DNA from: a virus
DNA length: 64,000 nt
Direction: 5' to 3' (one strand)
Virus record (IMG/VR): IMGVR_UViG_3300025435_000010
Coordinates: 62,001 to 126,000 of that record
This document shows positions 1 to 62,400 of the stretch, piece after piece. The notes beneath the pieces are model-generated. The model saw only the letters and a list, made by a program, of their open reading frames with translations, was not told the DNA's origin and did not search any database. A program made the position numbers and the translations under genes. Within the stretch, counting starts at the first letter, position 1. Every line of letters starts with the position of its first letter.

Positions 1-24
1 AAGTTTAGTACTCTGATAACTCAT
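1..24 (-). CDS. Start of a gene cut by the left edge
   Basis: Only the first eight codons (MSYQSTKL) are inside the window, reading leftward from an ATG at 24. The start is supported by an early-type promoter placed 6 nt upstream, in the same arrangement as at folE and other early genes. The product cannot be identified. Confidence 0.5.
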
Positions 25-1665: not shown

Positions 1666-2316
1666 ATGTCTGAATATACAAAAGAGTATAAACTTAAATT
1701 TGCTAACGGAAATCATCCTCATTCATCTGAAGAGAGACAAGCTATTATCGATAACGCTTCAAAAGCATATGAAGCCTATCTAGACGCTCTTGGCTTTGAT
1801 TGGCGTAACGATCCAAACAGTACCGGTACACCATTGAGAGTAGCTAAAGCATTCGTCAATGATCTTGCAAGTGGTTGTTATGATAACCCTCCGAAGATTA
1901 CATCATTTCCTAGTAATGGATATGATGGAATGGTGTTTCAAGGTGGTATCCCTGTAAAGTCACTCTGTAGCCATCATCACCTTGCTTTTACCGGTGTCGC
2001 ACACGTTGCTTATATACCCTCTGCTGAGGGTCGAGTAATCGGGCTATCGAAGCTTAATCGAATTGTAGAATTTTATGCCCGTCGTCCACAAATTCAGGAA
2101 GGTCTCACAGTGCAGATTCATGATGCTATTAATGGCGTATGTGAGTTGAATAAGGGTGTTGCTGTCATGGTTAGCGCTACGCATACCTGTGCATGTCTTC
2201 GTGGTGTAAAACACGATGGATGTGAAATGAAGACCTCAAAACTTAGTGGAGACTTCTTAGAGGATGGTGCTACAAGAGCTGAATTTTATAACTTTGTAGC
2301 TAATATGAAGAGCTAA
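1666..2316 (+). CDS. folE: GTP cyclohydrolase I
   Basis: Converts GTP to 7,8-dihydroneopterin triphosphate, the first step of folate and of queuosine/7-deazaguanine synthesis. The 216-aa protein has the usual family length and signature: CSHHH at 101-105 (zinc ligand Cys101 and active-site histidines), the strand HVAYIP, GRVIGLSKLNRIVEFYARRPQ, QEGLTVQI, and ATHTCACLRG with Cys175 as the second zinc cysteine. The ATG at 1666 is fixed by the promoter 6 nt upstream. It stands alone on the plus strand between two minus-strand late clusters. With queC at 19099-19812 it may feed preQ0 synthesis for DNA or tRNA modification, but queD and queE are not in the window, and a pterin or thymidylate role is also possible. 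Confidence 0.95.
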   Translation: MSEYTKEYKLKFANGNHPHSSEERQAIIDNASKAYEAYLDALGFDWRNDPNSTGTPLRVAKAFVNDLASGCYDNPPKITSFPSNGYDGMVFQGGIPVKSLCSHHHLAFTGVAHVAYIPSAEGRVIGLSKLNRIVEFYARRPQIQEGLTVQIHDAINGVCELNKGVAVMVSATHTCACLRGVKHDGCEMKTSKLSGDFLEDGATRAEFYNFVANMKS

Positions 2317-17933: not shown

Positions 17934-17961
17934 TTGATTAGGTGAAATGTGATAGTATAAT
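17934..17961 (+). promoter_or_regulatory. Early-type promoter of uvsX
   Basis: TTGATT (17934-17939), 16-bp spacer, TATAAT (17956-17961), then 7 nt to ATG 17969. It starts right after the terminator T-tract. The -10 context AGTATAATAAG is identical to that of folE. Confidence 0.7.
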
Positions 17962-17968
17962 AAGAAAT

Positions 17969-19099
17969 ATGGATAAAGATTTACTTAAAACCCTTTCTGT
18001 TATTGACGAGCATAATTCAGATGCTTGTTTTCTTTCTGAAAATGCACTTTCAAATTTTACTGAGTGTTATGATACCGGTTGTTATGCTCTTAATGCTATT
18101 TTAACTGGTGATTTAAGGAATGGTGGTGTACCGCAAGGTCGTATTATTGGCTTTAGTGGTGAGTCAGGAACAGGTAAAACTCTCATTACCGGTAAAATTT
18201 TAGCTAACGCTCAGAAGAAAGGTGTTATCCCGGTTATTTTTGATTCCGAAATTGCTGTAGATAAAAACTCCGTCCGTGGCGTCGGACTCGATCCTGCTAA
18301 CGTTAAGTACGTACCAATTGATACTATTGAGAAGTGTCGTAACCAAGTTAGTGCCTTACTTGACAAGGTCATTGCTAATAATCAGCATGGTAAGATTATT
18401 ATCTGTATTGATAGTTTAGGTAATCTTGCATCACAGAAAGAGCTTGACGATGCTCTTAAGGATAAGTCAGCTGTTGATATGGGTATGCGCGCTAAGGCTC
18501 TTAAGTCTATGCTTAGAACCTTAACTTATAAGGCCGCTAAAGCTCAGGTTTCTATTATCTTTGTCAATCATACATATTCAGATCCTGCTGCTATGTATCC
18601 ATCTTTGATCAAGTCACAAGCTGGTGGGTCTGGTCCAGTTTATATGGCGAGTATTCTCGTTCAGCTTGCTAAGAGAAATGAAAAAGCAGGCGAAGGTGAG
18701 TTTGGCGGTGTTGAAGATAATAAGCTTTCTGAAGCTAACAAATATAGCGGTGTAACGCTTCGAGCACTTACTGCGAAGAATCGTTTTATTCCTCAATTCC
18801 TTGAGATTGAGATGTATCTATCATTTAAGTCAGGACTAAACAAATACAGTGGCTTGCTTGCCATGGCTACAGCAAGAGGTATTGTAGAGCAGAACGGCGC
18901 TACTTATACTGTCGGAGTCGATGGCGGTAAGTATAAAAAAGGTGATAAGCTTGGTTATGCAAAGAACTTTACTAAGGACGCATCGTTTTATGAAGATTTT
19001 ATTATACCGGCCTTAGACGAAGCGCTTAAAACAGATTATCGTTATCATCAAGCCTCTGATGATCTTATTGATGATGTGGTAGAGCAAAACGCAGAATAA
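17969..19099 (+). CDS. uvsX: UvsX RecA-like recombinase
   Basis: The strand-exchange protein of the T4 recombination system. The 376-aa protein (T4: 391) has Walker A GESGTGKT (about 64-71), the DSEIAVDK catalytic region, Walker B KIIICIDSLGN (about 142) and the L2/VSIIFVNHTY region. The ATG at 17969 (MDKDLLKTL) is chosen over an in-frame GTG at 17942, which lies inside the promoter. The C-terminus is acidic (DDVVEQNAE). The stop overlaps the queC ATG by one base (TAATG), so the two genes are co-transcribed. Confidence 0.93.
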   Translation: MDKDLLKTLSVIDEHNSDACFLSENALSNFTECYDTGCYALNAILTGDLRNGGVPQGRIIGFSGESGTGKTLITGKILANAQKKGVIPVIFDSEIAVDKNSVRGVGLDPANVKYVPIDTIEKCRNQVSALLDKVIANNQHGKIIICIDSLGNLASQKELDDALKDKSAVDMGMRAKALKSMLRTLTYKAAKAQVSIIFVNHTYSDPAAMYPSLIKSQAGGSGPVYMASILVQLAKRNEKAGEGEFGGVEDNKLSEANKYSGVTLRALTAKNRFIPQFLEIEMYLSFKSGLNKYSGLLAMATARGIVEQNGATYTVGVDGGKYKKGDKLGYAKNFTKDASFYEDFIIPALDEALKTDYRYHQASDDLIDDVVEQNAE

Positions 19100-19812
19100 T
19101 GAGCGGCGTTATTGTACCTATCAGTGGTGGAATGGATTCAACCGTTCTTCTCCATCATGCAGCAGCTAATTTTGATAAAGTATATGCTATATCTTTTGAT
19201 TATGGTCAAAGGCATATAAAAGAGTTAGAGTGTGCTGATTGGCAGATTAATAATATACGCGAAAGTGATGATGACAAAAATATATGCTTTAACACAACAG
19301 TTAAATTGCCATTTTTTAATCTCATTAAAAATTCTGCTCTACTGAATAGAGAAATTAATGTAGCTAAAGCAAAGGACGTAATGGGCGACCCGCAAACGGT
19401 TAATTATGTTCCGTTTAGAAATATGATGCTCTTGAGTATTGCATGTTCATTTGCTGAACAATTTGAAGCTAGCGTTGTATATCACGGTGCAGCTCAGGCG
19501 GACTCCGTTGCAGGATACTGGGACGGATCCCCTGAGTTTCTTGCATCTATTAATAACGTAACATCGCTTAATAGAAGAAATAAAGTTGAAATTGAAGCGC
19601 CATTGATTAATAAATCAAAAGCTGAAATTATTCAAATGGGTATTGATCTCGGTGTTGATTTTAGCCGTACTTGGACTTGCTATGAAGGTGTTGAAGAGGC
19701 GTGCGGTGAATGTACAGCTTGTAGTTTGAGATTGCAGGGCTTTATTCAAGCAGGAATTAAAGATCCAATAAACTATTCAAAAAATATTCCTTGGGATAAG
19801 CTTTTAGCTTAA
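19099..19812 (+). CDS. queC: QueC, 7-cyano-7-deazaguanine (preQ0) synthase
   Basis: Converts 7-carboxy-7-deazaguanine to preQ0 using ATP and ammonia. The 237-aa protein has the PP-loop SGGMDST at 8-14, FDYGQRHIKEL, YVPFRNMMLLSIA, HGAAQADSVAGYWDGSPEF and the zinc site Cys194, Cys202, Cys205, Cys208 (CGECTACSLR). All family motifs are present. It is co-transcribed with uvsX. With folE at 1666 and a class II glutamine amidotransferase at 20764 it suggests 7-deazaguanine modification of phage DNA. It ends convergently in a shared TTAA with the 19809-20723 gene. Confidence 0.93.
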   Translation: MSGVIVPISGGMDSTVLLHHAAANFDKVYAISFDYGQRHIKELECADWQINNIRESDDDKNICFNTTVKLPFFNLIKNSALLNREINVAKAKDVMGDPQTVNYVPFRNMMLLSIACSFAEQFEASVVYHGAAQADSVAGYWDGSPEFLASINNVTSLNRRNKVEIEAPLINKSKAEIIQMGIDLGVDFSRTWTCYEGVEEACGECTACSLRLQGFIQAGIKDPINYSKNIPWDKLLA

Positions 19813-20723
19813 CCAAAGTCGACACCGTAGCGACCACCTTCTCCACCAAATACCTCACGACCGGTGGTAGGTCTGGCATTGACGCCAAATTGACGTTGAG
19901 CGTATTCGTCTGGAGTAAGATCTGCTAAATCAGCTTCACCACTTGTAAATTCATCAGCATTATCACCGAATTCGATAATATTACCTCTCTTAGAGAGAAC
20001 ACCAGCCTTTAAGAGTCTATTAATGACACCTTTTGCTTGTCCAATAGCTCTACCTTCGCTAATATCCATATTACCCTGTACAATATGAGCCTTTATTGTA
20101 TTGATTAATTCTTGCTCATTAGTACCATCTCCGACATTATTAACAGCAAAATGCTCTAATTTATCGACACCACTTTCAGCGGCAGGCTCTTCCTGTTGAG
20201 TAGCCGTCGGTGTTGTGTGTTGTGCAGGAGCTGCTCTAAGTGCATGTTCAGACTCATCATCTTTATGCTCAATTGAGCTAGTAACTGCATCCTCAACGTC
20301 ACTATGATCGATATCTTCACCTTCTGAGGCCTTATCATTAAGAAATTTGACAGCAGGCGCTACAGCGTTCTTAATAATACGTGCCGTGTACCCAGCACGA
20401 GCCTTAGGATAGCCTAAATGAACAAGCTCACTATGAATAGCATCTTGAAGACTTGCAAGTTGTTCTTTCTCTGAACCTTCTGCATCAAAACGGCCACCAG
20501 GAAATAATGCATCATAGACAGGCTTAACGATCATTTCGATAACCTCTTCTGCAGATTTACCAGTCTTTTTCATTAAATCGGAAAAAAGATATGTATCACC
20601 TCCGCGTGTTGTAACAGCTTGTGTTGTTGCACTATGAATATCTGCATAATCAGCACCGATTGGTGCTTCCTTAATAAGGCGATTACGATAAGCTTCGAAA
20701 ATTAAATGTGAATCCTTGTTCAT
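19809..20723 (-). CDS. Putative packaged protein with winged-helix-like C-terminal domain (304 aa)
   Basis: The N-terminus HLIFEAYRNRLIKEAP is a targeting-like segment with an IKE-A site. Residues about 25-130 are helical. A Thr/Gln/Glu-rich linker (about 150-180) leads to a block of about 55 residues (ELINTIKAHIVQGNMD, GVINRLLKAGVLSKRGNIIEF) with the helix-turn-helix-wing outline of a winged-helix DNA-binding domain. The C-terminal 40 residues are Gly-rich. The function is unknown; a delivered DNA-binding protein is possible. A TAAATA box lies 9 nt upstream of its ATG, within the promoter of the divergent amidotransferase gene. Confidence 0.65.
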   Translation of the reverse strand: MNKDSHLIFEAYRNRLIKEAPIGADYADIHSATTQAVTTRGGDTYLFSDLMKKTGKSAEEVIEMIVKPVYDALFPGGRFDAEGSEKEQLASLQDAIHSELVHLGYPKARAGYTARIIKNAVAPAVKFLNDKASEGEDIDHSDVEDAVTSSIEHKDDESEHALRAAPAQHTTPTATQQEEPAAESGVDKLEHFAVNNVGDGTNEQELINTIKAHIVQGNMDISEGRAIGQAKGVINRLLKAGVLSKRGNIIEFGDNADEFTSGEADLADLTPDEYAQRQFGVNARPTTGREVFGGEGGRYGVDFG

Positions 20724-20726
20724 GTC

Positions 20727-20754
20727 TTGAATTATTTATTCTTGAAGGTATAAT
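20727..20754 (+). promoter_or_regulatory. Early-type promoter for the amidotransferase gene
   Basis: TTGAAT (20727-20732), 16-bp spacer, TATAAT (20749-20754), 9 nt to ATG 20764. Confidence 0.65.
20733..20738 (-). promoter_or_regulatory. Late box (TAAATA) inside the divergent early promoter
   Basis: Minus-strand AATAAATA, 9 nt before the ATG at 20723. It lies entirely in the spacer of the plus-strand early promoter. Confidence 0.5.
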
Positions 20755-20763
20755 ATATTCATA

Positions 20764-21447
20764 ATGTGTGGAATTTTCGCTGCTGCTGATTTTAACAAAT
20801 ATATAAAACTTTATCTTAAAAATAAAGAAAGAGGTACATTTGCCTATGGAGCTTTGTTTTTGAGTCATACCTATGATGCAGCTATGAAAACAGAGGGTAC
20901 AGTTGAATTATCAAAAAATATGATAATCAATAATATAGACATGCAGATGAAGCCATCAGAGTTTTATTATTTTATGGGCCATACCCAAGCTCCAACTAGT
21001 TCAAAGCGCATATATGACGAATCAACATCGCATCCGTTTCATTGTGGTAATTGGGTAGTGGCGCATAATGGTGTTCTTACAAACGATAAGAAGCTTAAAA
21101 GTAAAATTAAAAATATGAGTCACTATAATGAAGTAGATACTTCTGTAATACCTGCTCTTTTAAATCAATATTCTGAAGAGATGGACAATGAGGTAGGATT
21201 AATTTGTGAAGTCTTATCAAAGCTTGAAGGTACATTCGGTCTTTGGATTTATAATAAACAATCTCACAACGTATATTTTGTACGATCAGGTAGCACTCTT
21301 TACGCAAATATCTTAGATAATACTGTCTCATCTCTTCCTGATAATGATCTTGTACCTCTCGAAGAAGGAGTGCTATATCTCGTAACACTGGAGGGTTTAA
21401 CCTCTGTCGGAGGCTTTACAAATAACTCACCATTTTTTATTCTATGA
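20764..21447 (+). CDS. Class II glutamine amidotransferase (Ntn hydrolase)
   Basis: Releases ammonia from glutamine with an N-terminal cysteine nucleophile. The start MCGIFAA places Cys2 at the N-terminus. GHTQAPTS (72-79), HPFHCGNW, AHNGVLTN with the HNG motif at 101-103, NEVDTSVI and LEGTFGLWIY follow, as in the glutaminase domains of PurF, GlmS and asparagine synthetase. There is no synthetase domain; the 227-aa protein is the glutaminase alone. Archaeal and some phage GAT-QueC proteins fuse this domain to QueC to make archaeosine-type bases. Here queC lies 950 nt upstream as a separate gene, so it may be the split partner. It overlaps the following glycosyltransferase by 4 nt. Confidence 0.88.
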   Translation: MCGIFAAADFNKYIKLYLKNKERGTFAYGALFLSHTYDAAMKTEGTVELSKNMIINNIDMQMKPSEFYYFMGHTQAPTSSKRIYDESTSHPFHCGNWVVAHNGVLTNDKKLKSKIKNMSHYNEVDTSVIPALLNQYSEEMDNEVGLICEVLSKLEGTFGLWIYNKQSHNVYFVRSGSTLYANILDNTVSSLPDNDLVPLEEGVLYLVTLEGLTSVGGFTNNSPFFIL

Positions 21448-22136
21448 CATTCGCAATCGTATCCTGTACACAACAAGCTGATTATAAACAAACACTTCTC
21501 TATAAGAGCTTAGCTAAATTAGAAAAAACAAATAATTTGCAACTTTTAGATAAAGTTCAATTTCATACGCAAAATAAAAAAGGACTAAGCGAGGCTTATA
21601 ACGATTCGTTATCACGCAACCCTCTCAACGTTGATAAAGATATTATTATTTTTGCACATGATGATATCTGTATTGACGATGCAGGGTTTATATCAAAACT
21701 TGAAGAGGGGCACAAGACATATGATATTATCGGTGTCGCAGGAGGACTTAATCCAAAACTTAAAGCACCAGCTCTTTGGCATATTATGTGTGGTGGGTTT
21801 CAGGGAGGTGATTTACGTGGATTTGCCGGCCACTATCTACCAGATGGAACTACATCTATTACAAATTTTGGCCCATCACCAGCTCGTGTAGCAGTTATAG
21901 ATGGTGCGTTTATGTCAGTTAATACGAAGAAAGTTTTAGATGCTAAATGGTCGTTTAACGAAAACCACACGTTTCATCACTATGATTTATCTAGCTGTAT
22001 TGATGCTAATAAGAAGAAGCTTAAAATAGGTGTTGTACCTATTTTGACATATCATAATTCACCAGGGTTAAGGGATATTAACGATAAAACGTTTGTTAAA
22101 AACCAAGCAAAGTTTTTACAAGAATATGCTAGCTAA
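21444..22136 (+). CDS. GT-A-type glycosyltransferase-like protein
   Basis: A 230-aa protein with the outline of family 2-like glycosyltransferases: FAIVSCTQQ at the start, GLSEAYNDSL, and IIIFAHDDICIDD with HDD at 72-74 as the metal-binding DxD equivalent. GVAGGLNP, VIDGAFMSVNTK (acceptor-side loop), HHYDLSSCIDANK and TYHNS follow. The donor and acceptor are not known. It overlaps the amidotransferase gene (ATGA), so the two are translated together, which points to a linked role, possibly in nucleotide or DNA modification. gp41 follows after 30 nt. Confidence 0.72.
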   Translation: MTFAIVSCTQQADYKQTLLYKSLAKLEKTNNLQLLDKVQFHTQNKKGLSEAYNDSLSRNPLNVDKDIIIFAHDDICIDDAGFISKLEEGHKTYDIIGVAGGLNPKLKAPALWHIMCGGFQGGDLRGFAGHYLPDGTTSITNFGPSPARVAVIDGAFMSVNTKKVLDAKWSFNENHTFHHYDLSSCIDANKKKLKIGVVPILTYHNSPGLRDINDKTFVKNQAKFLQEYAS

Positions 22137-28865: not shown

Positions 28866-29266
28866 TCGTTAGCTGAAGCTAAGTAGCCTTTAAGTGACTG
28901 ACTTAAACTACCGAGATCTGCAGCAAGGCGTGAAATCTTTTTCTTCTCACTTCTTGCAATGTTTTCAAACATTGTATCGCAAGGAGCAGAGTGGAGTTGA
29001 ATTTGCATTGAATTGCTATTTGTATCGTTTAAAAATATGATAAAATCATCGATTTTATTAATCCATTCATGTAGTGTGTTAATTTGCTCAACCTTTACAT
29101 GGTCAATACGCGTCTGCCTTTCAGCAGCTTTTACATCGAAATCAGAAGGTTTTGCTGTATCAAGACTTTGTGCCATAGCTTCTTGATCATTTGCGGGAGC
29201 AGGCTCAGGGACCGGAGCAACATCTGCTTCAAGAATATAATCAAACCTCGACTTAAAATAACTCAT
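28862..29266 (-). CDS. Putative packaged protein with PA-rich linker (134 aa)
   Basis: The start MSYFKSRFDYILEADVAP is a targeting-like segment (ILE-A). A Pro/Ala/Glu linker (about 16-35) is followed by a helical domain (about 48-134) with an amphipathic helix INTLHEWINKIDDFIIFL and KKISRLAADLGSLSQSL. The organisation is like the 6535-6984 protein. A perfect T4 late promoter TATAAATA lies 5 nt before the ATG. The function is unknown. Confidence 0.7.
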   Translation of the reverse strand: MSYFKSRFDYILEADVAPVPEPAPANDQEAMAQSLDTAKPSDFDVKAAERQTRIDHVKVEQINTLHEWINKIDDFIIFLNDTNSNSMQIQLHSAPCDTMFENIARSEKKKISRLAADLGSLSQSLKGYLASAND

Positions 29267-29271
29267 AATAG

Positions 29272-29279
29272 TATTTATA
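29272..29279 (-). promoter_or_regulatory. Perfect T4 late promoter TATAAATA
   Basis: Minus-strand TATAAATACTATT then ATG at 29266: an exact T4 late box, with predicted initiation on the A of ATG. Confidence 0.8.
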
Positions 29280-29287
29280 GCTGAGAT

Positions 29288-29293
29288 TAAATA
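29288..29293 (+). promoter_or_regulatory. Late box (TAAATA) for 29301 gene
   Basis: TTAAATA ending 7 nt before ATG 29301, back to back with the minus-strand late promoter at 29272-29279. Confidence 0.5.
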
Positions 29294-29300
29294 ATTTTAC

Positions 29301-29693
29301 ATGAAAAAGAAGGTTCTATTTGAGGATACAGTTTCATACTATAATAAGTGGGTATCTGGTCAAGCTGCACGTGAATTCGGTGCCATTAAAATGAAATTCA
29401 AGGACCTAACTGGACAGGATAAAGGTAAACTAACACAGAGTCCTAACGATGCTAGAGCGAATAATGTATTACCTTTCCCTCTACCGAACACAGCATCAGT
29501 TCTCGGTGATTTGCTTACAAATACAACAAATTCACTAACTTTGTTTAAAGATGCTCTTAAGCATCCGTTAATTAGAGAAGACGAAAAAGCGAAAAAGGAA
29601 ATTGAATTAATTGTTAACTGCTTAAACAAATCACTATTAGATCTCAAACAGATCTTTGTTGTACTTACAAAAAGCGCTAAAGAAGACGCTTGA
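29301..29693 (+). CDS. Hypothetical protein, possibly virion (130 aa)
   Basis: No family is recognised. The N-terminus MKKKVLFEDTVSYYNKW is weakly like the targeting peptides (LFE-D). Residues 30-75 are polar (DKGKLTQSPNDARANN), and 75-130 are helical (SVLGDLLTNTTNSLTLFKDA, EIELIVNCLNKSLLDLKQIF). The late box and the divergent targeting-peptide gene suggest a late virion-related product. Its TGA stop is part of the -35 box of the next promoter. Confidence 0.65.
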   Translation: MKKKVLFEDTVSYYNKWVSGQAAREFGAIKMKFKDLTGQDKGKLTQSPNDARANNVLPFPLPNTASVLGDLLTNTTNSLTLFKDALKHPLIREDEKAKKEIELIVNCLNKSLLDLKQIFVVLTKSAKEDA

Positions 29694-29718
29694 TTTTAAG
29701 TGTTTATAGCATTATTAT
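29690..29718 (+). promoter_or_regulatory. Early-type promoter for 29725 gene
   Basis: TTGATT (29690-29695, containing the upstream stop), 17-bp spacer, TATTAT (29713-29718), 6 nt to ATG 29725. Confidence 0.55.
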
Positions 29719-29724
29719 ATAGTA

Positions 29725-30138
29725 ATGCTCGGTAAACTTTTAACACAATTAACAGCGCTAATTATAGTTGCTATATTATTTGGCTTACTATTACAACACT
29801 CTGGTGTTAGCTTATTTATAAGCATTCCACTCGGTATAATTCTTCAATTTGGTGTGTATTATGCGTTTATTACTATTCTCAATGCTTTTGTAGAATTAAG
29901 AAATAAAAAGCTTGAAAACGAACGCATTAAAGAATTTAGCCTTCAAGGTCTTGAGGTAACATGTCCTTGTGCTCTAAAGAAAATAGAGTTTGTTCCTATT
30001 ATTCTCAATACCGACAACAAATATACGTGTAATTTTTGTCAAAAAAATGTTAGCGTATATGTCGTACCCGAAACAGCACTTGTAACAGAACCACTTGCTC
30101 TTACACAGATGCCACCAATAATTCCGCTGCCTGAATAA
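29725..30138 (+). CDS. Membrane protein with two TM helices and a C-terminal zinc ribbon (137 aa)
   Basis: Two hydrophobic segments (LTALIIVAILFGLLL and SLFISIPLGIILQFGVYYAF, about residues 10-55) should form a hairpin in the inner membrane. A charged helix (VELRNKKLENERIKEF) is followed by CPC and CNFC pairs about 25 residues apart, a likely zinc ribbon, probably on the cytoplasmic side, and a Pro-rich tail. The function is unknown. The early-type promoter suggests a role during takeover, for example anchoring a complex to the membrane, which is speculation. Confidence 0.7.
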   Translation: MLGKLLTQLTALIIVAILFGLLLQHSGVSLFISIPLGIILQFGVYYAFITILNAFVELRNKKLENERIKEFSLQGLEVTCPCALKKIEFVPIILNTDNKYTCNFCQKNVSVYVVPETALVTEPLALTQMPPIIPLPE

Positions 30139-30142
30139 TATA

Positions 30143-30601
30143 ATGGAAATACCTGAAAGTATAAGCAAATTAACGATAGAAGGTGTCGCAGATCAATTTA
30201 CACTCTCATCTCAAAAACAACAAATACCTATTGAGGATTTTATAATTCTACTAAAACAACAACTAAATTTATCAAACTATAAGTCCTTTGAGGAGGGTTT
30301 AGTATACCACAAGAAAGACCCGAAATCCGAAAAAAACTTTATTAAAAATTTATTTTTTTTATATAACGATACCATGGTTAAAGCTATACAAACCTCGAGT
30401 ATTAGCGATGATATAAAGAATGACGTTGTAACAGCGTTCACAACTATTGTCAGTAATACCATGCAAAATATTGATACAATCTATACTCTTACAAGTACTT
30501 TAAATAACAATAAGAATATTATTGACGTTCAAAAAATTCTATACATAATACTCGGATATGTCATCGACACAATTAAGCGAAATAACAACACAAGTAACTG
30601 A
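30143..30601 (+). CDS. Hypothetical helical protein (152 aa)
   Basis: No family is recognised. It is almost all helical, with a helix-rich C-terminus (SNTMQNIDTIYTLTSTLNN, ILYIILGYVIDTIKR). It starts 4 nt after the membrane protein gene and overlaps the next gene by 44 nt, so it belongs to the 29725 early unit. Confidence 0.65.
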   Translation: MEIPESISKLTIEGVADQFTLSSQKQQIPIEDFIILLKQQLNLSNYKSFEEGLVYHKKDPKSEKNFIKNLFFLYNDTMVKAIQTSSISDDIKNDVVTAFTTIVSNTMQNIDTIYTLTSTLNNNKNIIDVQKILYIILGYVIDTIKRNNNTSN

Positions 30602-30869
30602 CCACAATCAATTTAACATGTCATACGACGAATATGCACGTTGGCTTTGCTTACTCGAGGGCATTGAAATTGTAGGTAAAAGAGTAGAACAACTCAAGAA
30701 ACGCTCGATTGATAGTAGTATTGATTGGATTAAACCACTGGCTTTTCAAAAATATATTGATGAGCGTTTTCTGTCAATGAAGTCAGATCTTGATGAGATC
30801 GAACGACACGAATCAATTACAGCCCCAAAAATTTCATGCACTACATCATTGGTACCAACTTTAGCGTAA
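30558..30869 (+). CDS. Hypothetical protein (103 aa)
   Basis: The region NQFNMSYDEYARWLCLLEGI, VGKRVEQLKKR and YIDERFLSMKSDLDEIER is helical with coiled-coil character. The function is unknown. The overlaps of 44 nt upstream and 34 nt downstream show tight packing in one transcription unit. Confidence 0.6.
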   Translation: MSSTQLSEITTQVTDHNQFNMSYDEYARWLCLLEGIEIVGKRVEQLKKRSIDSSIDWIKPLAFQKYIDERFLSMKSDLDEIERHESITAPKISCTTSLVPTLA

Positions 30870-31108
30870 AGCCAGATCCTCGACGCAGCTTCCTTGCAAA
30901 GGAAACAGCATTTAATGTGAATATGCAATATAATCTCATTAATATTAAACCTCAAGACAGCGCTCTTGAATATACATTTTATGGTAGCGATGATTCAAAA
31001 GTGACTTTAAAATTCAATACAAGCAAAGATGCAGATCAATTCATTGCTAAGTTGCGAAACGAGAATTTGCCAGTGTATAACCCTGAAATCGGTAAACTCG
31101 ACGTCTAG
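30836..31108 (+). CDS. Small hypothetical protein (90 aa)
   Basis: The start MHYIIGTNFSVKPDPRRSFL, followed by YNLINIKPQDSALEYTFYG and a short strand-helix end (KVTLKFNTSKDADQFIAKL), suggests a small beta-barrel. I have an impression of similar MHYIxGT proteins in T4-like phages but know no function. It ends in a shared CTAG with the gp14-like gene. Confidence 0.65.
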   Translation: MHYIIGTNFSVKPDPRRSFLAKETAFNVNMQYNLINIKPQDSALEYTFYGSDDSKVTLKFNTSKDADQFIAKLRNENLPVYNPEIGKLDV

Positions 31109-31845
31109 GCGTAACCACCATATACACTATCATAATCTGTAAGTGTATAATCAAAAACAGATTTAGATGCAACATCAACACTGTAGCTATAAGGTTTATT
31201 GGCGCCTGATACACCAGGATTAAGCGTGTCATCATATACCTGTTGATTAACAGCTTCACCTGACAGACCTGGCTCAAACGACCATTCAAAACGCTTAGCC
31301 TTTATTAGCCAAACATAATGACCAGCGAGCGGATTAATCTGCGCGATATCCTGATCAAGACGTTCAGTTATCTCATAAAAATTACCATTTCGACCATTTG
31401 GACGATCACTACCATATTCTGAGAGCTGAAAAACATCTCCTGACTTTGGCTCGCGACTCGCACCGAATATGGTATAAAAACCGCTAATATGAATAAACGC
31501 TGTTACTTCATCTTCTGATAATAAACCATACTTACTAAGCATGAGAGCGTTTTCATTTAAATTGATCGCTACAGTAATTGGAAGAGGAGGTGCAAACGTT
31601 TGGGTTGGTTGTTCACCGTAAAGCATGTCTGCAGAAAGAACGCTAAATGTATTCACATAATATAGCGTCTGTTGACCGTAGAGATTTATTTGCTCCCTCC
31701 AATAATTGGAATATAAAACTCTTTCACTCTGATTATTATTCTTATCAGTAAAGCGAATACACGTATTATCGACAAAGTTTAAACTACTCGGATAGATCTG
31801 CGGAGTAGGATTACCTGTATAGAAGTCTTTTTCGTTGACGCTCAT
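31105..31845 (-). CDS. 14: gp14-like neck protein
   Basis: A 246-aa protein (T4 gp14: 256 aa). The call rests on blocks that resemble gp14 of T4-like phages: INLYGQQTLYYVNT, then SADMLYGEQPTQTF, SKYGLLSEDEVTAF, EPKSGDVFQL, NFYEITERLDQDIAQINPL and YVWLIKAKRFEWSFEPG. gp14 joins the head to the tail at the neck. Unlike the main tail cluster it is on the minus strand, coupled to the preceding targeting-peptide gene by a 1-nt overlap (TAATG). A different neck or head-completion protein is possible. Confidence 0.6.
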   Translation of the reverse strand: MSVNEKDFYTGNPTPQIYPSSLNFVDNTCIRFTDKNNNQSERVLYSNYWREQINLYGQQTLYYVNTFSVLSADMLYGEQPTQTFAPPLPITVAINLNENALMLSKYGLLSEDEVTAFIHISGFYTIFGASREPKSGDVFQLSEYGSDRPNGRNGNFYEITERLDQDIAQINPLAGHYVWLIKAKRFEWSFEPGLSGEAVNQQVYDDTLNPGVSGANKPYSYSVDVASKSVFDYTLTDYDSVYGGYA

Positions 31846-32192
31846 TATTTAGTTAATGTAAAGAATCCAGGTTCATGATGTGGTGCTAGATATATACCAG
31901 TATTACCGAGAGAGCCTTTAAGTTCTTTAAGATTAAATTTTGTACCCAATTGACGAGCTTTAGCTAAGGTAATTGTCTTTGTACCACTATTCATCGTCTT
32001 AAGGGTTTCAAACTCTTGTACAGCATTATTATCATGCTTACAGTACTCTGGGACAGTCTTACCACCAGTTGCAGAGTGTGAATTGACATCCGGAATAATG
32101 TCAGCCATATGACGATGCTGTCTAGCTTTACCGGTTTTTTTATTAAAATGAGGGTTAAACCTTTCGAAAATAAAGTCTTTAAAGCTCTTCAC
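31845..32192 (-). CDS. Putative packaged protein (115 aa), GTG start
   Basis: GTG at 32192 gives MKSFKDFIFERFNPHF, a clear targeting-like peptide with an IFE-R site. The start is fixed by a late promoter 5 nt upstream. The rest is basic and His-rich (KKTGKARQHRHMADIIPDV) with a C-terminal alpha/beta part (KTITLAKARQLGTKFNLKEL, GIYLAPHHEPGFF). No function is recognised. It is co-transcribed with the gp14-like gene, which supports a head/neck connection. Confidence 0.7.
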   Translation of the reverse strand: MKSFKDFIFERFNPHFNKKTGKARQHRHMADIIPDVNSHSATGGKTVPEYCKHDNNAVQEFETLKTMNSGTKTITLAKARQLGTKFNLKELKGSLGNTGIYLAPHHEPGFFTLTK

Positions 32193-32197
32193 AGATA

Positions 32198-32205
32198 TAT
32201 TTATA
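32198..32205 (-). promoter_or_regulatory. Perfect T4 late promoter TATAAATA
   Basis: Minus-strand TATAAATATATCT then GTG at 32192. It starts directly after the T-tract of the terminator at 32207-32236. Confidence 0.75.
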
Positions 32206-32206
32206 C

Positions 32207-32236
32207 AAAAAAAAGGGCCTTATTGCTAAGGCCCTT
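32207..32236 (-). terminator. Intrinsic terminator for 32262-33230
   Basis: Minus strand AAGGGCCTTA, loop GCAA, TAAGGCCCTT followed by a T8 run. A strong hairpin 26 nt after the stop of the acidic protein gene. Confidence 0.9.
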
Positions 32237-32261
32237 AATTTTAATTTGATCTACTTTATTA

Positions 32262-55774: not shown

Positions 55775-58700
55775 ATGCCTAACAGTTTAAACTATACATA
55801 TATCTATTTTAATGTAGTTGACTATACAGGCAATAGTTCTCTGTCTTCATTTACTCTCAGTAATACACCACTCACTTTTCGTCCTGATTTTACCACGTCA
55901 TCGATTTTATCGGGATCAAATAGCATATCAAATAAATCCCTGCACTGGGATTTTGGAGATGGCACATCGTCTAATGACCTCATACCAACACATAATTATG
56001 TATGGCCTGGTGAATACACCGTAACGTTAACAATATTTGACAAATACGGTAATGCATATGATAGTAACTATCAACCCACAATACAGATCTTTGATTACAT
56101 CTCTACCCAAATTGATTTTCAAGACTATAAAAGCTTAGTATACGATATACCTTCCGGTCAGATAATCGATCCCTTGATACTTAACACATATTTTAGTTGG
56201 CAAGACTATCAAGCTCTTAGTGGTACAGCTTTAAGCGCATCTGGCTATACGATTAATCTATATGCTTCAGGAGCTAAGGGTGATTACAATTATGTCGCTA
56301 ATGCCTTACTGGATAAATGGGAGCATTTAAGGTCCTTGAGTCGTTTTTATGTGTTATCTACTGTAAATGGCTATACTGACTATACAATTGTTGATAGTGT
56401 ACAACCACAGCTTACACCCGTATACGCAGCAATACAAAATAACAAATTACAGCTTTGTTCGTCGTCTATCTCAGGTAGTGTTCTTGTAGGTGTAACAGGT
56501 AGTTCACAATTCTGGTATACGGATGACAGACCAGCTAATTATCTTACTGATAGTAAACCTATTATTCTCTTTGCTACTTTAGATAGCTCAAAATTTCATG
56601 ATAAATTTACTCAAGAAAATAACGCTTTTAATTATATTAACTACCCACCATACGGGTTTCAAAATTTAGAGCCTGCCGTATTTCCAAATATTAAAACGCG
56701 GTATAACCCTGCCGACCATATTTCAATCACCACTACAGGTATCGATGGTGAAGGTACACTTCCTATCAATAGTTTTAACTTACCTAGTATTAGCTGGCAA
56801 CAAACAGAAATACCGTATGTAATTAAATTTAAGGACTCACTAAATTTTACAACAAAAAATTACCCTGCCCTATCTTCTTCTATTGCCCAGGGTTCAGGTA
56901 TTTACGGTAACCCACAGCCTTATTATGACGTTCAAACAGGCGTTGTATATATTAGCGGTGGTGTGTACTTACCGCTATCTGGTGTAACATTTTATGAGGA
57001 TTTTCCTGCACAGGCACCACAAAGCTTAGGTGCATTTTATAAAGGGTATTTTGTATCCAGCCAATCAAGTACAAATTGCGTACTCACGGCATCAGTGACA
57101 ATTATAGACCCAGCTTATTATCGCAAGGACTCCCTTATAAGTTGGATTGCTATCCCACAATATAATTCTGCGTTAAGACTCTTACGACAAGAAGCTATTG
57201 ATGGGTATACTCTATCTGATACAATTACATTTACCAATGGACTTTCGTCAGAATTTAATATCAATAACCAAAATGTGTATGCTATAACTGTAGTCCCATC
57301 CGGTAATAGTCCTGATAATGACTATCAAACCTGGTTTGCCGATAGTGTAAACGATCAACTTGTAAAATATGATGTAAATGGTAATCAAGTACCTTTATAC
57401 TATACAGCCTCCTTAACAGGCGCGAATAATGCATATTATAGTCTTGCATTATCATCGATGCCGACACTTGTTAACAATACTATTGTTTATCAATCATATC
57501 AATCAACACCGACTAATGGTGTATCGGCGTTTGCAACCCCAAATGATATGGCTTTAGATGGAAACAGTGATCTCTGGGTATCATTGCTCGATAGTGGGCT
57601 AGTTATTAAGATTACTAACGGTACGTTAAACGGTGTATTAACTGGTAGTTATGTAACCACGTACGCTGTACCGAGCGGTTATAGCTATCCCTTATCTGCG
57701 AGTTATTTCTACGAAAATAAAACTGACTATAATACAACAAGCGGTTTTGCCGGTGAAGGTTTAATTTTACCGTCTTCAGTTGACACCGATTTATATAATA
57801 ATATTTGGGTAGCGTATAATCACCCTGATTATAATAAACTGATAAAATATCAAGGTGTCGGTAATTTCTCAAATATAGCTACACAGCTAACATCAATTTC
57901 TTTCCCTTACGGTGTCACACCTGAAATGATACGCATTGACAGAAATCAATATATTTGGGTTACATGCAATAACCATAACTCGAACGGTATTGGCTTCGGC
58001 ACCTACAATGACCTTCTATATAAATTTGATACTAACGGTAACTTAGTACAAGGGTATCCATTATCAGGCTTTCAACAAATAGGTGATATTGTCATTGACG
58101 GTAGTCAAAACGCCTGGGTTGTACAAGGAGCTGATATATTAACGAGGGTAGATGGGGTATTGGCTACAACAAATAACGTCGCCGCGGGGTTACGTGACCC
58201 TGACGGTACGTCAACAAATAATAAAACAGAATATATCTGCAGCATTGGCGGTGTAACATGCGATACTGATAATAATATTTGGATTATCAATAATTTCGAT
58301 AAAAATTTATACACAATCAATACCAGTCTCGCGAATGCAACACCTAGAGTTAATTCTTTTTCTCCAAAATATACGCTACCATTAACCTATCCGCTTCCTG
58401 GGTTATCACCTATATCCGCATATACAATACCAGCGACACCTGTACCTAACACCTACAGTGACGGCTTACAGGAATTCCAGGCAATCGGTGACTGGAATGG
58501 ATACAACTGGTTAAACAAATACGCTGCACCTATCAGTACTATTCGTACGATTACAGGATCATCTAGCTTATTTAATATCTACCCAGGGACAGGTGAATAT
58601 AATCTCGCTAAGGTTAACGATAACTGGAACGCAGCAGGATATTATGAATCTTTACGCTATCAAGAATCACTCATTAATAAACCGGTATTCTTTGAGCAAT

Positions 58701-59434
58701 TTCTTGGTGTTATTCTCGGTGGTCTTAACGCTCAACCCTATGAACTTGGTAAGACTATTTACGAGAAGATTGCAAACTTTGTAGATAATAATGCTGATAT
58801 CGATAAAGTCAATGTTAATCAGCTATTATCATTCTGCCAGGAATTAACTGTTGACTATCAACAGCATGTCTACATATTACCACCTCAAATTCAGCGTTTA
58901 GTAGATCTATTATCAATTAAACAGAGCGTTCTTTGGGGCCAACCTAACCAATACGCGCTAAATTTTAACTCACGTGGTACAACGATATCAAATAGTACAT
59001 ATGGAGCTAATTTGAGTTCACAAATTGACCCGCTTACAGGTATATTTACAAACGGCGTACCTATTGTAGCGCAGGAGGTATTCTCCGGTAATTTTAAGCT
59101 TGTAAATACTAACATTATTAGTAATAGTGCTAATACTATTTCACTTTCTGCTTATACACCTAATTGGGGATGGGGACTAGTTATTAGTGATGATATAACA
59201 GGTACAAACATTACAAATTATTATAAATTTTTTAATTATAACCCTACACCAAATAATACCTATTATAACAATATTATTGATTGGACTAATCCGCTTACAA
59301 CACTATCACCAACTAATAGCTCCTATCAAGCATGGAGCTCAGATAATGGTATTGTACAAAACATACTCAGCTACGAGTTAACAAAGGGTCTAAGGCTCTT
59401 TACCTCTGCTGTCAACATTACCTATAATAGCTAA
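55775..59434 (+). CDS. Large baseplate protein with PKD domain and beta-propeller (1219 aa)
   Basis: Residues about 35-108 form a PKD-type Ig-like domain (LHWDFGDGTSSND, WPGEYTVTLTIFD). Between about 510 and 850 there are six strands of the NHL/streptogramin-lyase type, each with a W in xxxW(V/I/F) followed by a KI/KY/KF strand: QTWFADS, DLWVSLL, NIWVAYN, YIWVTCN, NAWVVQG, NIWIINN. This indicates a six-bladed propeller. The C-terminal 350 residues (NKPVFFEQFLGVILGGLNAQ, YELGKTIYEKIANFV) resemble a wedge-anchoring part. The position after gp6 is that of T4 gp7. I infer a peripheral wedge protein with added surface- or glycan-binding domains. Confidence 0.6.
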   Translation: MPNSLNYTYIYFNVVDYTGNSSLSSFTLSNTPLTFRPDFTTSSILSGSNSISNKSLHWDFGDGTSSNDLIPTHNYVWPGEYTVTLTIFDKYGNAYDSNYQPTIQIFDYISTQIDFQDYKSLVYDIPSGQIIDPLILNTYFSWQDYQALSGTALSASGYTINLYASGAKGDYNYVANALLDKWEHLRSLSRFYVLSTVNGYTDYTIVDSVQPQLTPVYAAIQNNKLQLCSSSISGSVLVGVTGSSQFWYTDDRPANYLTDSKPIILFATLDSSKFHDKFTQENNAFNYINYPPYGFQNLEPAVFPNIKTRYNPADHISITTTGIDGEGTLPINSFNLPSISWQQTEIPYVIKFKDSLNFTTKNYPALSSSIAQGSGIYGNPQPYYDVQTGVVYISGGVYLPLSGVTFYEDFPAQAPQSLGAFYKGYFVSSQSSTNCVLTASVTIIDPAYYRKDSLISWIAIPQYNSALRLLRQEAIDGYTLSDTITFTNGLSSEFNINNQNVYAITVVPSGNSPDNDYQTWFADSVNDQLVKYDVNGNQVPLYYTASLTGANNAYYSLALSSMPTLVNNTIVYQSYQSTPTNGVSAFATPNDMALDGNSDLWVSLLDSGLVIKITNGTLNGVLTGSYVTTYAVPSGYSYPLSASYFYENKTDYNTTSGFAGEGLILPSSVDTDLYNNIWVAYNHPDYNKLIKYQGVGNFSNIATQLTSISFPYGVTPEMIRIDRNQYIWVTCNNHNSNGIGFGTYNDLLYKFDTNGNLVQGYPLSGFQQIGDIVIDGSQNAWVVQGADILTRVDGVLATTNNVAAGLRDPDGTSTNNKTEYICSIGGVTCDTDNNIWIINNFDKNLYTINTSLANATPRVNSFSPKYTLPLTYPLPGLSPISAYTIPATPVPNTYSDGLQEFQAIGDWNGYNWLNKYAAPISTIRTITGSSSLFNIYPGTGEYNLAKVNDNWNAAGYYESLRYQESLINKPVFFEQFLGVILGGLNAQPYELGKTIYEKIANFVDNNADIDKVNVNQLLSFCQELTVDYQQHVYILPPQIQRLVDLLSIKQSVLWGQPNQYALNFNSRGTTISNSTYGANLSSQIDPLTGIFTNGVPIVAQEVFSGNFKLVNTNIISNSANTISLSAYTPNWGWGLVISDDITGTNITNYYKFFNYNPTPNNTYYNNIIDWTNPLTTLSPTNSSYQAWSSDNGIVQNILSYELTKGLRLFTSAVNITYNS

Positions 59435-59442: not shown

Positions 59443-62400
59443 ATGGCTGATGTATTGCAATTTATAGATGAAAGGTTGAGCAATTCGATAACAGCGCTTG
59501 TCCCGCCTGCAAATCCTATCGATCGTATTCAGCCCTTAACCTTTACCGATTGGCTCAAATATAATACACGTCTTTTTACAACAACTAATGAATTTTTAAA
59601 TAGGTATCAATCCTATCTTAATAATTGGTATACAGCAAACAAAACATCTATTGAACATCAAACAACAGGTGTTCAGAGTTACTATACAGATTTAATTAAT
59701 GAAATTGTAATTAATTATACGTCTAGTGACGAGCAGCGCTATTTACAAAATCTCGATCTTTCAAACTCTCGTGATTTAGCAATCGCTGTTCCCTTCTTCG
59801 CACAAAAAATAAAAGAGATCTGCCTCTATTATAGTAACTTGCGTGATGAAGTACAGACATCAACAATACAATTTAACCTCAAGGGCTCTAACATTGGTAA
59901 TGAAAATCTAATATATGTCTCACTAATTAAGGCGTTACAAACTCCTGAAATTTTAAATCAATTATCAACTCTTGGCTTATCTATATCATCAATTAGTAAT
60001 AACATAGCTATCGATATTGAGGAATTATACGATACATATCCTGATTATTATGATATAAATCCTGTTTTACCTGCCTCTGCATATAACGTAACAACAGGAC
60101 TAAGAAATGACTATTTTTCAGCAAATACTGTAAATCTTGATCCTTATCTTGACCTTAATATTAATATAAGCATTTTAAATGCTATCTTAGCTTATCCCTT
60201 TTATGCTATCGAGCTCGGCAGTGATCTTACAATCGATCCTCTAGTTAATTCATCGCAGTTAAATCTATTAAAAGATAGTGACTTCATATCCACAGTAAAC
60301 GACGGTAATATTGATAATCTCAATGTACAAACTCAAGCCCTAGAGCTATCCAAATACATGGGTGTTGATTATTATTATATTGTAACATCGACAACAAACA
60401 CATATACCTCAGGATCTTTGTTTACAGCAAATAGTGAATTTGCTAATACCCTCAACAAGCGCTACCCAACGATAGCAGCTATTCCCAGTCAAGAATTTTT
60501 AAAAACCGCAAAAGAGCTTGGTCTGTTTTTTAAACCGGATAAGATCGGTCTTTCTAATTTTACTAATTTTAAATTTACAGCTTCCGTAGATTTAACTCAG
60601 TTACAGCCAAATTCTGTTTATTATTTTCCTGATCCTTCCAAATACGGTAATATTTCCGGTAATTCAAAAACACAATTTCAATCACCGTTAAACTTTTTCG
60701 AAGAAAACTACTTTAATAAAATTGATTATAGTAATCAATATCGATTTGGCGATGTAGCTACGGATCCTGCCTATCAAACACTTCGTGCGTATCAATCAAG
60801 AGAGCAAACACTTAATTACTCCAATGACGGACTATCACGATACGTTGATTCACAAGATTTCTTCACTGGAGACATGGATACAATATGGAGTAATGTTGAT
60901 GCATATCCCCTTGCCTCAGTTAGTCAATTTCCAATCGATAGCCGATTACAGGATCTATTGACATTAAATCAAAATTTATTTCAATATAAGAGTGATGTGT
61001 ATGGAAATGAGTACGGTTTGTATAAAACAACTACAAACAAGCAATTCAGTACTGCACTAAGTCCGGTTAGTGTATTAGACTTAATTATTGATGGTTTTGT
61101 ATTTAATACGTCAGCAGTAGATGTTAATTTCGTTGATGCAACGCAGACCTTTAACGGTGTCAATTTTAATAGCTGGTTAACCTATAGTTCAACACCAAGC
61201 TATTCGGCGTTTAATCTTAAGACTCAATATTCAGGCGTTGTATTAAAAACAAGCTATACAGAATCTCGCGCTAATAACACCTTTAATTTTACCAAACAAT
61301 CCATAAATCCAAAATTTGTAGTTAATAATTTACCAGGACGCAATAGAAATTATATTATTGATGACGGTACAGGGTTCTCCACATCAGATGATTCAGGTAA
61401 TGTAATGGTACTTGAATCATATGATTTTAAAACAAATGATGCATTTACAACTACAAGTGCCGTAAATGTTGCATATGTATGTGAGTTCCATGATGCTGTA
61501 ACATTTACTAGACCATATACTGCTAATAATGCTGCTTTACCTGATTCGCCGAGTGATGCACCAAATTTCAATATTAATAACCCTACACTCTATTATAATG
61601 AATTAGTAGATGGTTCGATTATTAACGTCAATACAGGGACAGGCTATATTGATAGCTTTACATTCAACGACCCGACATCATATATTACAAAACAATATGA
61701 TTGTGGTGTTTTCTTTGATACAACAATAAATGCAGAACCTTGTAGTAGCGTATATTCGTATTCATATGTTGAACTCAATAATTTTGTTAATACCCGCTTA
61801 ATTGATAGAAATACAGCACTAGATTTCTCTTTATCAGGAATCGATACCAACAGAAATTCTCTATATTATACACGACATCTTCAATATGGTGATTTATATT
61901 TTAGAAACGCAAATAGCACAATAATAGGTCCAATTTCGTCTACATTGAGTGCAACGTTCTTAAATTACCCACTAGCTGTACGCAATCAAATTTATAACAA
62001 TACAATTAATTTTGATTTATACTTTGATACCTTACAGATTGAGACTAAAGATTACCTCATTTTTGATAAAATTGAATACGATTACGATACAAATCAGGTA
62101 GTGGGCTCGGTTAAGGGATATGATGTTATTCCTCGTGGTAGTGGCACTGACTTTGAAAAATTTTCTACTGTATGGTTCGACGAATCGACAAATGTATTAA
62201 TGGTGTGTGTAACAACACTCTTTAATCAGTTAAGTGATACTAATTATAAAATTGTATATCCAACAATATACACTATTAATCTTAATAATAGACAATCAAA
62301 TATAGTATACCCTGTTGAAAGCCCTAGTACCCTAACATTTAATTCTCTCAGTGCTTTCTCATTATACGGTCAAGGTATTGAACTTAACATCGTTAAAGTT

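Follow-up and report, generated by a model that had tools for sequence, protein, structure and literature searches.

Modification of phage DNA with 7-deazaguanines is a known pathway, described for Flavobacterium phage immuto (NC_055915, Immutovirus), in which the genes for DpdA, a formyltransferase, a thymidylate-kinase-like protein and QueF follow one another in this order, and in which QueD, QueE, FolE and a phosphoribosyltransferase are also encoded. QueC is described as taking up free ammonia, and a glutamine amidotransferase (GAT) beside QueC is taken to signal archaeosine. In asparagine synthetase B and in archaeal GMP synthetase, a PP-loop ATP-pyrophosphatase consumes the ammonia that its glutaminase partner sets free; the GAT of GMP synthetase belongs to class I, and asparagine synthetase B is a fused protein with aspartate as its substrate. 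The glutaminase and the ATP-pyrophosphatase of archaeal GMP synthetase are encoded by separate genes (PMC13329287). The Gat-QueC archaeosine synthase of phage 9g and archaea unites a class II GAT domain and a QueC domain, the same domains as in the phage analyzed here, in one fused protein, the product of which is dG+ (PMC6884629).

The window, that is, the whole 64,000-nucleotide stretch of DNA that was analyzed, belongs to a 131-kb contig and encodes QueC and a stand-alone GAT. The phage shares the cassette order of immuto, with identities of 44% for DpdA and 42.5% for the formyltransferase, but differs from immuto in that its pathway genes are spread across about 60 kb and in that the QueC of immuto has no stand-alone GAT. 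A homologous GAT directly follows QueC in the KVP40/Schizotequatrovirus Vibrio phages 6E35.1a, nt-1, F86 and 1.081.O and in phage 2.275.O. All five except nt-1 encode QueF, whereas none encodes the formyltransferase, and the transglycosylase of nt-1 and 6E35.1a is DpdA2, a subfamily other than that of the window phage DpdA. The GAT homologues of these Vibrio phages are annotated as hypothetical proteins or nucleophile aminohydrolases.

QueC, the 7-cyano-7-deazaguanine (preQ0) synthase (19099–19812, + strand), matched PF06508 with 199 bits and NCBIfam TIGR00364 with 169.4 bits, exceeding the equivalog cut-off of 150.3. It was aligned to the QueC proteins 2pg3 (E. coli) and 3bl5 (B. subtilis), and it has the SGGMDS loop and a Cys4 zinc site with the spacing C(x)7CxxCxxC. 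With the loop, the zinc site and the equivalog-level score all present, the protein is predicted to be a genuine preQ0 synthase. The uvsX gene (17942–19099, + strand; phrog_97, 204 bits) lies directly 5' of queC, and its stop codon shares one base with the queC ATG (TAATG at 19097–19101), which supports the co-transcription of the two genes put forward in the preliminary description; they are regarded as translationally coupled. In a PADLOC search for defence systems, the single match of QueC was to the generic QueC model.

The separate GAT gene that had been placed about 950 nt past QueC is real. A class II glutamine amidotransferase (Ntn-Cys glutaminase; 20764–21447, + strand), the proposed partner of QueC, starts 951 nt after the QueC end, matches PF13522 with 42 bits (cut-off, 27), and yields an AlphaFold model (pLDDT 94.8) that resembles the glutaminase domains of GlmS, PurF and EgtC (Foldseek against GlmS, E 1e-11). 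Cys2, Arg23, His73, His101-Asn102-Gly103 and Asp125 are invariant among 40 diverse relatives, and dN/dS is roughly 0.04–0.09, with saturated dS. The presence of Cys2, the Arg, the Asn-Gly oxyanion hole, the Asp and the modeled Ntn fold marks the protein as a predicted class II amidotransferase. Pfam gave no match for the homologues of nt-1 and 6E35.1a, and one scan of 84,980 genomes, with a single motif as the query, revealed no cellular homologue of the family. The GAT is unassigned in databases, and homologues are encoded by dozens of related phages.

Between queC and the GAT gene, a gene for 304 amino acids (19809–20723, − strand), which is variable (present or absent) among relatives and matched neither Pfam nor PHROGs, lies on the opposite strand, so that QueC and GAT do not form one operon in the window phage; this gene is probably outside the pathway. 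A glycosyltransferase-like gene (21444–22136, + strand; PF13712, 37.7 bits) overlaps the GAT stop codon by 4 bp, and is kept as a GAT neighbour only in the clade resembling the window. The T4-type late promoter TATAAATA was not found near QueC or GAT, and was not enriched across the window (6 found versus 14 expected).

The remaining pathway genes were identified on the same contig. FolE, the GTP cyclohydrolase I of step 1, occupies 1666–2316 (+ strand; PF01227, 159 bits; phrog_2197, 208 bits), in agreement with the folE assigned at 1666. QueD, the 6-carboxytetrahydropterin synthase (contig positions 61347–62024, − strand; PF01242, 52.8 bits, cut-off 22.4), straddles the left edge of the window: its 5' end covers window positions 1–24, with the start at base 24, and the gene continues leftwards beyond the window. 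As had been noted, no complete copy of queD, queE or dpdA lies inside the window, and a search of the remaining contig located all three outside it, QueE, QueF, the DpdA-like protein and the formyltransferase being encoded to the left of the window beyond QueD. QueF, QueD and QueE all score below the NCBIfam equivalog cut-offs, as seen for QueF with TIGR03138 (174.7 versus 293; PF14819, 84.5 bits). In QueF, the NADPH motif ESKSxKLY (E88–Y95), Cys199 and Asp206 are conserved in 87 sequences, and the motif together with the catalytic Cys and Asp points to a canonical QueF, a predicted preQ0 nitrile reductase.

The DpdA-like protein (272 aa) shares 44–45% identity with the annotated DNA guanine transglycosylase of immuto and with a Campylobacter phage CP220 protein. 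A sequence search against the PDB found no TGT or other match, and the class of the protein was settled by fold comparison: the 15 best PDB matches of its AlphaFold model (pLDDT 93.5) are TGTs, with DpdA (7ui4) at rank 18, and the model indicates a TGT-type TIM barrel. D55 and D215 are invariant in 25 relatives, their assignment to the TGT catalytic positions having been made by eye only. In CP220, dADG replaces 100% of dG (PMC8306585). DpdA is followed by the kinase and QueF in all 65 untruncated loci, 54 of which include the formyltransferase. The latter matched PF00551 with 61 bits, and its Asn102, His104 and Asp143 are conserved; the 10-formyl-THF domain, the Asn-His-Asp triad and the adjacency to DpdA and QueF would fit an enzyme that we take to be the preQ1 formyltransferase, named DpdN. 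Its substrate would be preQ1, judging from the synteny and from the work of Cui et al. in 2023 (NAR 51:9214), reportedly the source of fdPreQ1 and of DpdN, and formylation of the base is considered fairly likely.

In the viral contigs, the GAT was found downstream of QueC in 72 of 80 QueC loci, the other eight being truncated, and QueC was visible at 50 of 67 GAT loci, the other 17 being truncated. Twenty-six of the QueC-GAT gaps fall within −104 to +37 bp, and the start and stop codons often overlap. At least three gene orders that are unrelated to one another contain the pair, namely UvsX-QueC-GAT-GT2-DnaB, QueD-QueE-FolE-DpdA-FmT-QueF-QueC-GAT, and that of the KVP40-like Vibrio phages. The link between GAT and QueC is strong. 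QueF and DpdA coincide: of 20 contigs with a GAT, 11 encode both, among them every one of the eight that measure at least 137 kb. Phages Dp-1, immuto, CP220 and Seurat possess QueC without a stand-alone GAT, indicating that QueC can act without it. The 7-deazaguanine modification of phage DNA proposed in the preliminary description is supported both by the missing genes on the contig and by the recurrence of the pair, and we regard it as highly probable.

Gene content, catalytic residues, folds and the association are read directly from sequence or structure, and the phage has every gene that the route from GTP to the modified DNA base would need. In the proposed mechanism, to which as a whole we assign a probability of about two in three, FolE, QueD and QueE would convert GTP to 7-carboxy-7-deazaguanine, from which QueC would form preQ0, consuming ammonia and two ATP. 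The GAT would split glutamine and pass the released ammonia to QueC, the two acting as a two-subunit glutamine-dependent amide synthetase, comparable to an asparagine synthetase B divided between two proteins. QueF would then reduce preQ0 to preQ1, the DpdA-type transglycosylase would swap DNA guanine for the modified base, and the formyltransferase would add a formyl group to the aminomethyl group, either on the free base or once the base is in DNA, to yield (formylamino)methyl-7-deazaguanine. What we infer is that ammonia is transferred, which substrate is formylated and in which order the last steps occur. That the GAT supplies QueC with ammonia is probable. It is somewhat less so, although still favored, that the large viral QueC clade represents a two-subunit glutamine-dependent preQ0 synthase, which acquired a dedicated glutaminase in an event independent of the fused archaeosine enzyme and thereby raises the preQ0 supply where DNA is heavily modified in aquatic hosts poor in ammonium.

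The preliminary description was supported as to the QueC-GAT pair and the pathway, whereas its two further ideas, a split of the known fused GAT-QueC and an archaeosine-type product, were not supported. In the QueC tree, the GAT-linked QueCs form one clade (100/97) apart from the fused Gat-QueC clade (100/100), and GAT and QueC are distinct genes in every relative inspected; the window pair is thus neither fused nor a member of the Gat-QueC clade, and the tree gives no support to fission of Gat-QueC as its origin. The separate proteins might nevertheless work as Gat-QueC does, adding ammonia to the preQ0 nitrile and leading to dG+ in DNA. The domain types are identical to those of Gat-QueC, which yields dG+ together with DpdA in E. 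coli (PMC6884629), and the profile of the split GAT detects the GAT domains of Gat-QueC with 45–50 bits, although it ranks GlmS higher (61 bits). The published chemistry of the relatives points elsewhere: the DNA of 6E35.1a, which encodes GAT, QueC and QueF, contains dPreQ1 (295 Da) at 15% of dG (PMC12028318), and that of nt-1, which encodes GAT and QueC without QueF, contains mainly dPreQ0, some dADG and just 0.02% dG+ (PMC6884629). In view of this trace, a weak archaeosine-forming activity may exist. Together with the co-occurrence of GAT and QueF and the formyltransferase beside DpdA, these data led us to reject archaeosine as the leading reading and make dG+ formation by the pair unlikely, and a preQ1-type end product is very likely to be formed instead.

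It is more doubtful still that the ammonia from the GAT is used at another step, such as formation of the dADG amide or amination of the DNA-bound base, alongside or in place of QueC. An amide intermediate does occur on the QueC route (PMC13329287), and nt-1 contains dADG, but only QueC accompanies the GAT in every gene order, and immuto has DpdA and QueF without a GAT.

The GAT could also be unrelated to QueC and serve the adjoining glycosyltransferase, for instance in amino sugar synthesis, as the 4-bp overlap, the retention of both genes in the window-like clade and the position of GlmS nearest to the GAT profile would allow. However, the GAT directly follows QueC with no glycosyltransferase both in the QueD...QueC-GAT operons and among the KVP40-like phages, is coupled to the formyltransferase instead in loci L220, L222 and L229, and lacks a sugar-isomerase domain, which makes this role very improbable; a glycosyltransferase-only partnership was rejected because the other gene orders lack that gene.

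Least probable is a pathway that targets host tRNA as a queuosine supply and leaves phage DNA untouched. In its favor, queuosine is made from preQ1, and the transglycosylase resembles TGTs. The transglycosylase is, however, short, matches no PDB TGT by sequence and has homologues in phages whose DNA modification is proven, such as CP220; GAT-bearing relatives carry modified DNA, and a formyltransferase is not known to act in the queuosine pathway.

No description of a conserved separate glutaminase partner of QueC was found in the literature searched. Judging from this locus and from related ones, a GAT beside QueC may also be read in another way, namely as a separate glutaminase that drives preQ0 synthesis for preQ1-type DNA modification. 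If so, phage DNA chemistry would be predicted differently from sequence, a glutamine-dependent route to preQ0 would take the place of the free-ammonia route of QueC, and the GAT protein overlooked by Pfam in nt-1 and 6E35.1a would gain a function. The window phage, a candidate for DNA with formylated 7-deazaguanine, encodes a transglycosylase that is kin to one from a phage with fully replaced guanine. The contig is metagenomic, and the relatives of its DNA polymerase are only about 30% identical.

The window covers bases 62001-126000 of a viral contig 131,144 bases long. The score of its QueC (19099-19812) exceeds the NCBI equivalog cut-off, and sequence inspection revealed that the uvsX stop and queC start codons share one base. 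GAT (20764-21447), the stand-alone class II glutamine amidotransferase gene, matches PF13522 and encodes a complete class II glutaminase, whose predicted structure (pLDDT 94.8) is best matched in the PDB by glutaminase domains, those of GlmS, PurF, and EgtC. Cys2, Arg23, His73, His-Asn-Gly 101-103, and Asp125 were invariant among 40 relatives, each <80% identical, and dN/dS against close relatives was roughly 0.04-0.09, with synonymous sites close to saturation. Together with FolE (1666-2316), these results bear out the three genes named in the preliminary description.

A scan of viral contigs using four GATs as queries yielded 67 GAT relatives, with QueC nearby in 50 and the upstream side truncated in 17. 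In the QueC scan, 72 of the 80 loci carried GAT downstream, and the remaining 8 were truncated. QueC and GAT overlapped or lay ≤37 bp apart in 26 loci; in the others, they were separated by variable genes, among them the window's opposite-strand gene. The pair was found in at least three gene orders, UvsX-QueC-GAT-glycosyltransferase-DnaB, QueD-QueE-FolE-DpdA-formyltransferase-QueF-QueC-GAT, and that of KVP40-like Vibrio phages, whose GAT is annotated as hypothetical or as a nucleophile aminohydrolase. The copies in phages nt-1 and 6E35.1a had no Pfam match and scored >100 bits with the GAT family profile. QueC was the sole partner shared by all of the orders. Several GAT-linked QueCs, at L023, L036, L055, and loci related to these, no longer have the four Cys residues that bind zinc.

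In a tree of 58 QueC sequences, in which the GAT-less QueCs were a small sample (13 rows), the GAT-linked QueCs formed one supported group (100/97) and the fused Gat-QueCs another (100/100), which argues against fission of Gat-QueC as the origin of the pair. What had been described as a possible split GAT-QueC pair therefore looks like a recruitment independent of Gat-QueC. A GAT-QueC-like fusion in Xanthomonas phage PhiXhv-16 (locus L255:2167-5401) adjoins a deacetylase and a glycosyltransferase; this cluster may be unrelated, serving a sugar-linked or DNA-hypermodification function.

Like GAT and QueC, the two parts of asparagine synthetase B are a class II glutaminase and a PP-loop ATP pyrophosphatase. 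In the simplest reading, GAT would feed QueC, presumably by ammonia transfer with direct binding of the two proteins. QueC forms preQ0 via an amide intermediate with ammonia as the donor (PMC13329287). The 7-deazaguanine DNA-modification pathway is already known in kind; no description of a separate glutaminase partner of QueC was found in the literature searched, which did not cover every key paper.

The search of the remaining genome that had been proposed for queD, queE, and dpdA located all three on the same contig, left of the window, dpdA as a candidate. QueD lies at contig 61347-62024 (-), QueE (phrog_2076) at 58614-59366 (-), QueF at 31348-32256 (+), the formyltransferase at 29889-30446 (+), and the DpdA candidate at 29080-29898 (+). 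The candidate matched none of the Pfam or NCBIfam models, and is 44% identical to a protein of Flavobacterium phage immuto annotated as a DNA guanine transglycosylase and 45% identical to a protein of the Campylobacter CP220 group. In its model (pLDDT 93.5), PDB ranks 1-15 were TGTs, and the DNA preQ0 insertase DpdA (7ui4) was at rank 18. A second AAA_28 kinase adjoins QueE at contig 57829-58578. A phosphoribosyltransferase at contig 21138-21599 (+) (L003:1138-1599, on the phage's own contig), nearest to xanthine/guanine PRTases and also present in the immuto cluster, could recycle guanine freed by DpdA.

A search with the DpdA alignment gave 80 loci from viral contigs, 65 of which had at least 4.5 kb 3' of DpdA and were counted. 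A kinase and QueF followed DpdA in 65/65 and the formyltransferase in 54/65, and immuto has the same cassette gene order. The NADPH motif and the catalytic Cys and Asp are conserved in QueF, as is the Asn-His-Asp triad in the formyltransferase. DpdA is therefore expected to be offered preQ1, which would be formylated in most cassette members if, as we infer, it is the formyltransferase substrate. The kinase is a thymidylate-kinase-like P-loop protein (contig 30796-31344 (+), L003:10796-11344), which adjoins DpdA in CP220 too. A phrog_1485 protein (contig 30379-30780 (+), L003:10379-10780) lies between the formyltransferase and the kinase in 47/65 cassettes. At loci L220 (7739-8940), L222, and L229, a formyltransferase away from DpdA is coupled directly to GAT with a 4-bp overlap. 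CP220 has a related transglycosylase without QueF, and dADG accounts for 100% of dG in its DNA (PMC8306585); by analogy, heavy guanine replacement is possible in the window phage.

QueF and DpdA occurred in the same 11 of 20 GAT-bearing contigs, including 8/8 of those of at least 137 kb, and 8 of these 11 had the formyltransferase. Vibrio phage 6E35.1a has the order QueD-FolE-DpdA2-QueF-QueC-GAT, and its DNA contains a 295-Da nucleoside at 15% of dG, consistent with dPreQ1 (PMC12028318). Phage nt-1 has QueC-GAT without QueF, and its DNA contains dPreQ0, dADG, and dG+ at 0.11%, 0.035%, and 0.02% of G, respectively; in the passages found of this 2019 paper, dG+ is ascribed to an ArcS homologue and the nt-1 GAT is unmentioned (PMC6884629). 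The published chemistry of 6E35.1a versus nt-1 is a natural experiment, in which the product tracks QueF rather than GAT. The archaeosine-type product proposed earlier does not agree with a dPreQ1-like base in GAT-bearing 6E35.1a and chiefly dPreQ0 in nt-1.

A glycosyltransferase-like gene (window 21444-22136 (+)) overlaps the GAT stop by 4 bp and stays beside GAT in the window-like clade, with invariant HDD, DG, YD, and H residues; its product might act by decorating the modified base. A LIFEAY-type stretch is found at the N-terminus of two proteins, as NKDSHLIFEAYRNRL in that of window 19809-20723 (-) and as NKDSNLIFEAYKKKL in that of contig 17970-18494 (+); it may be a signal that targets internal head proteins to the capsid.
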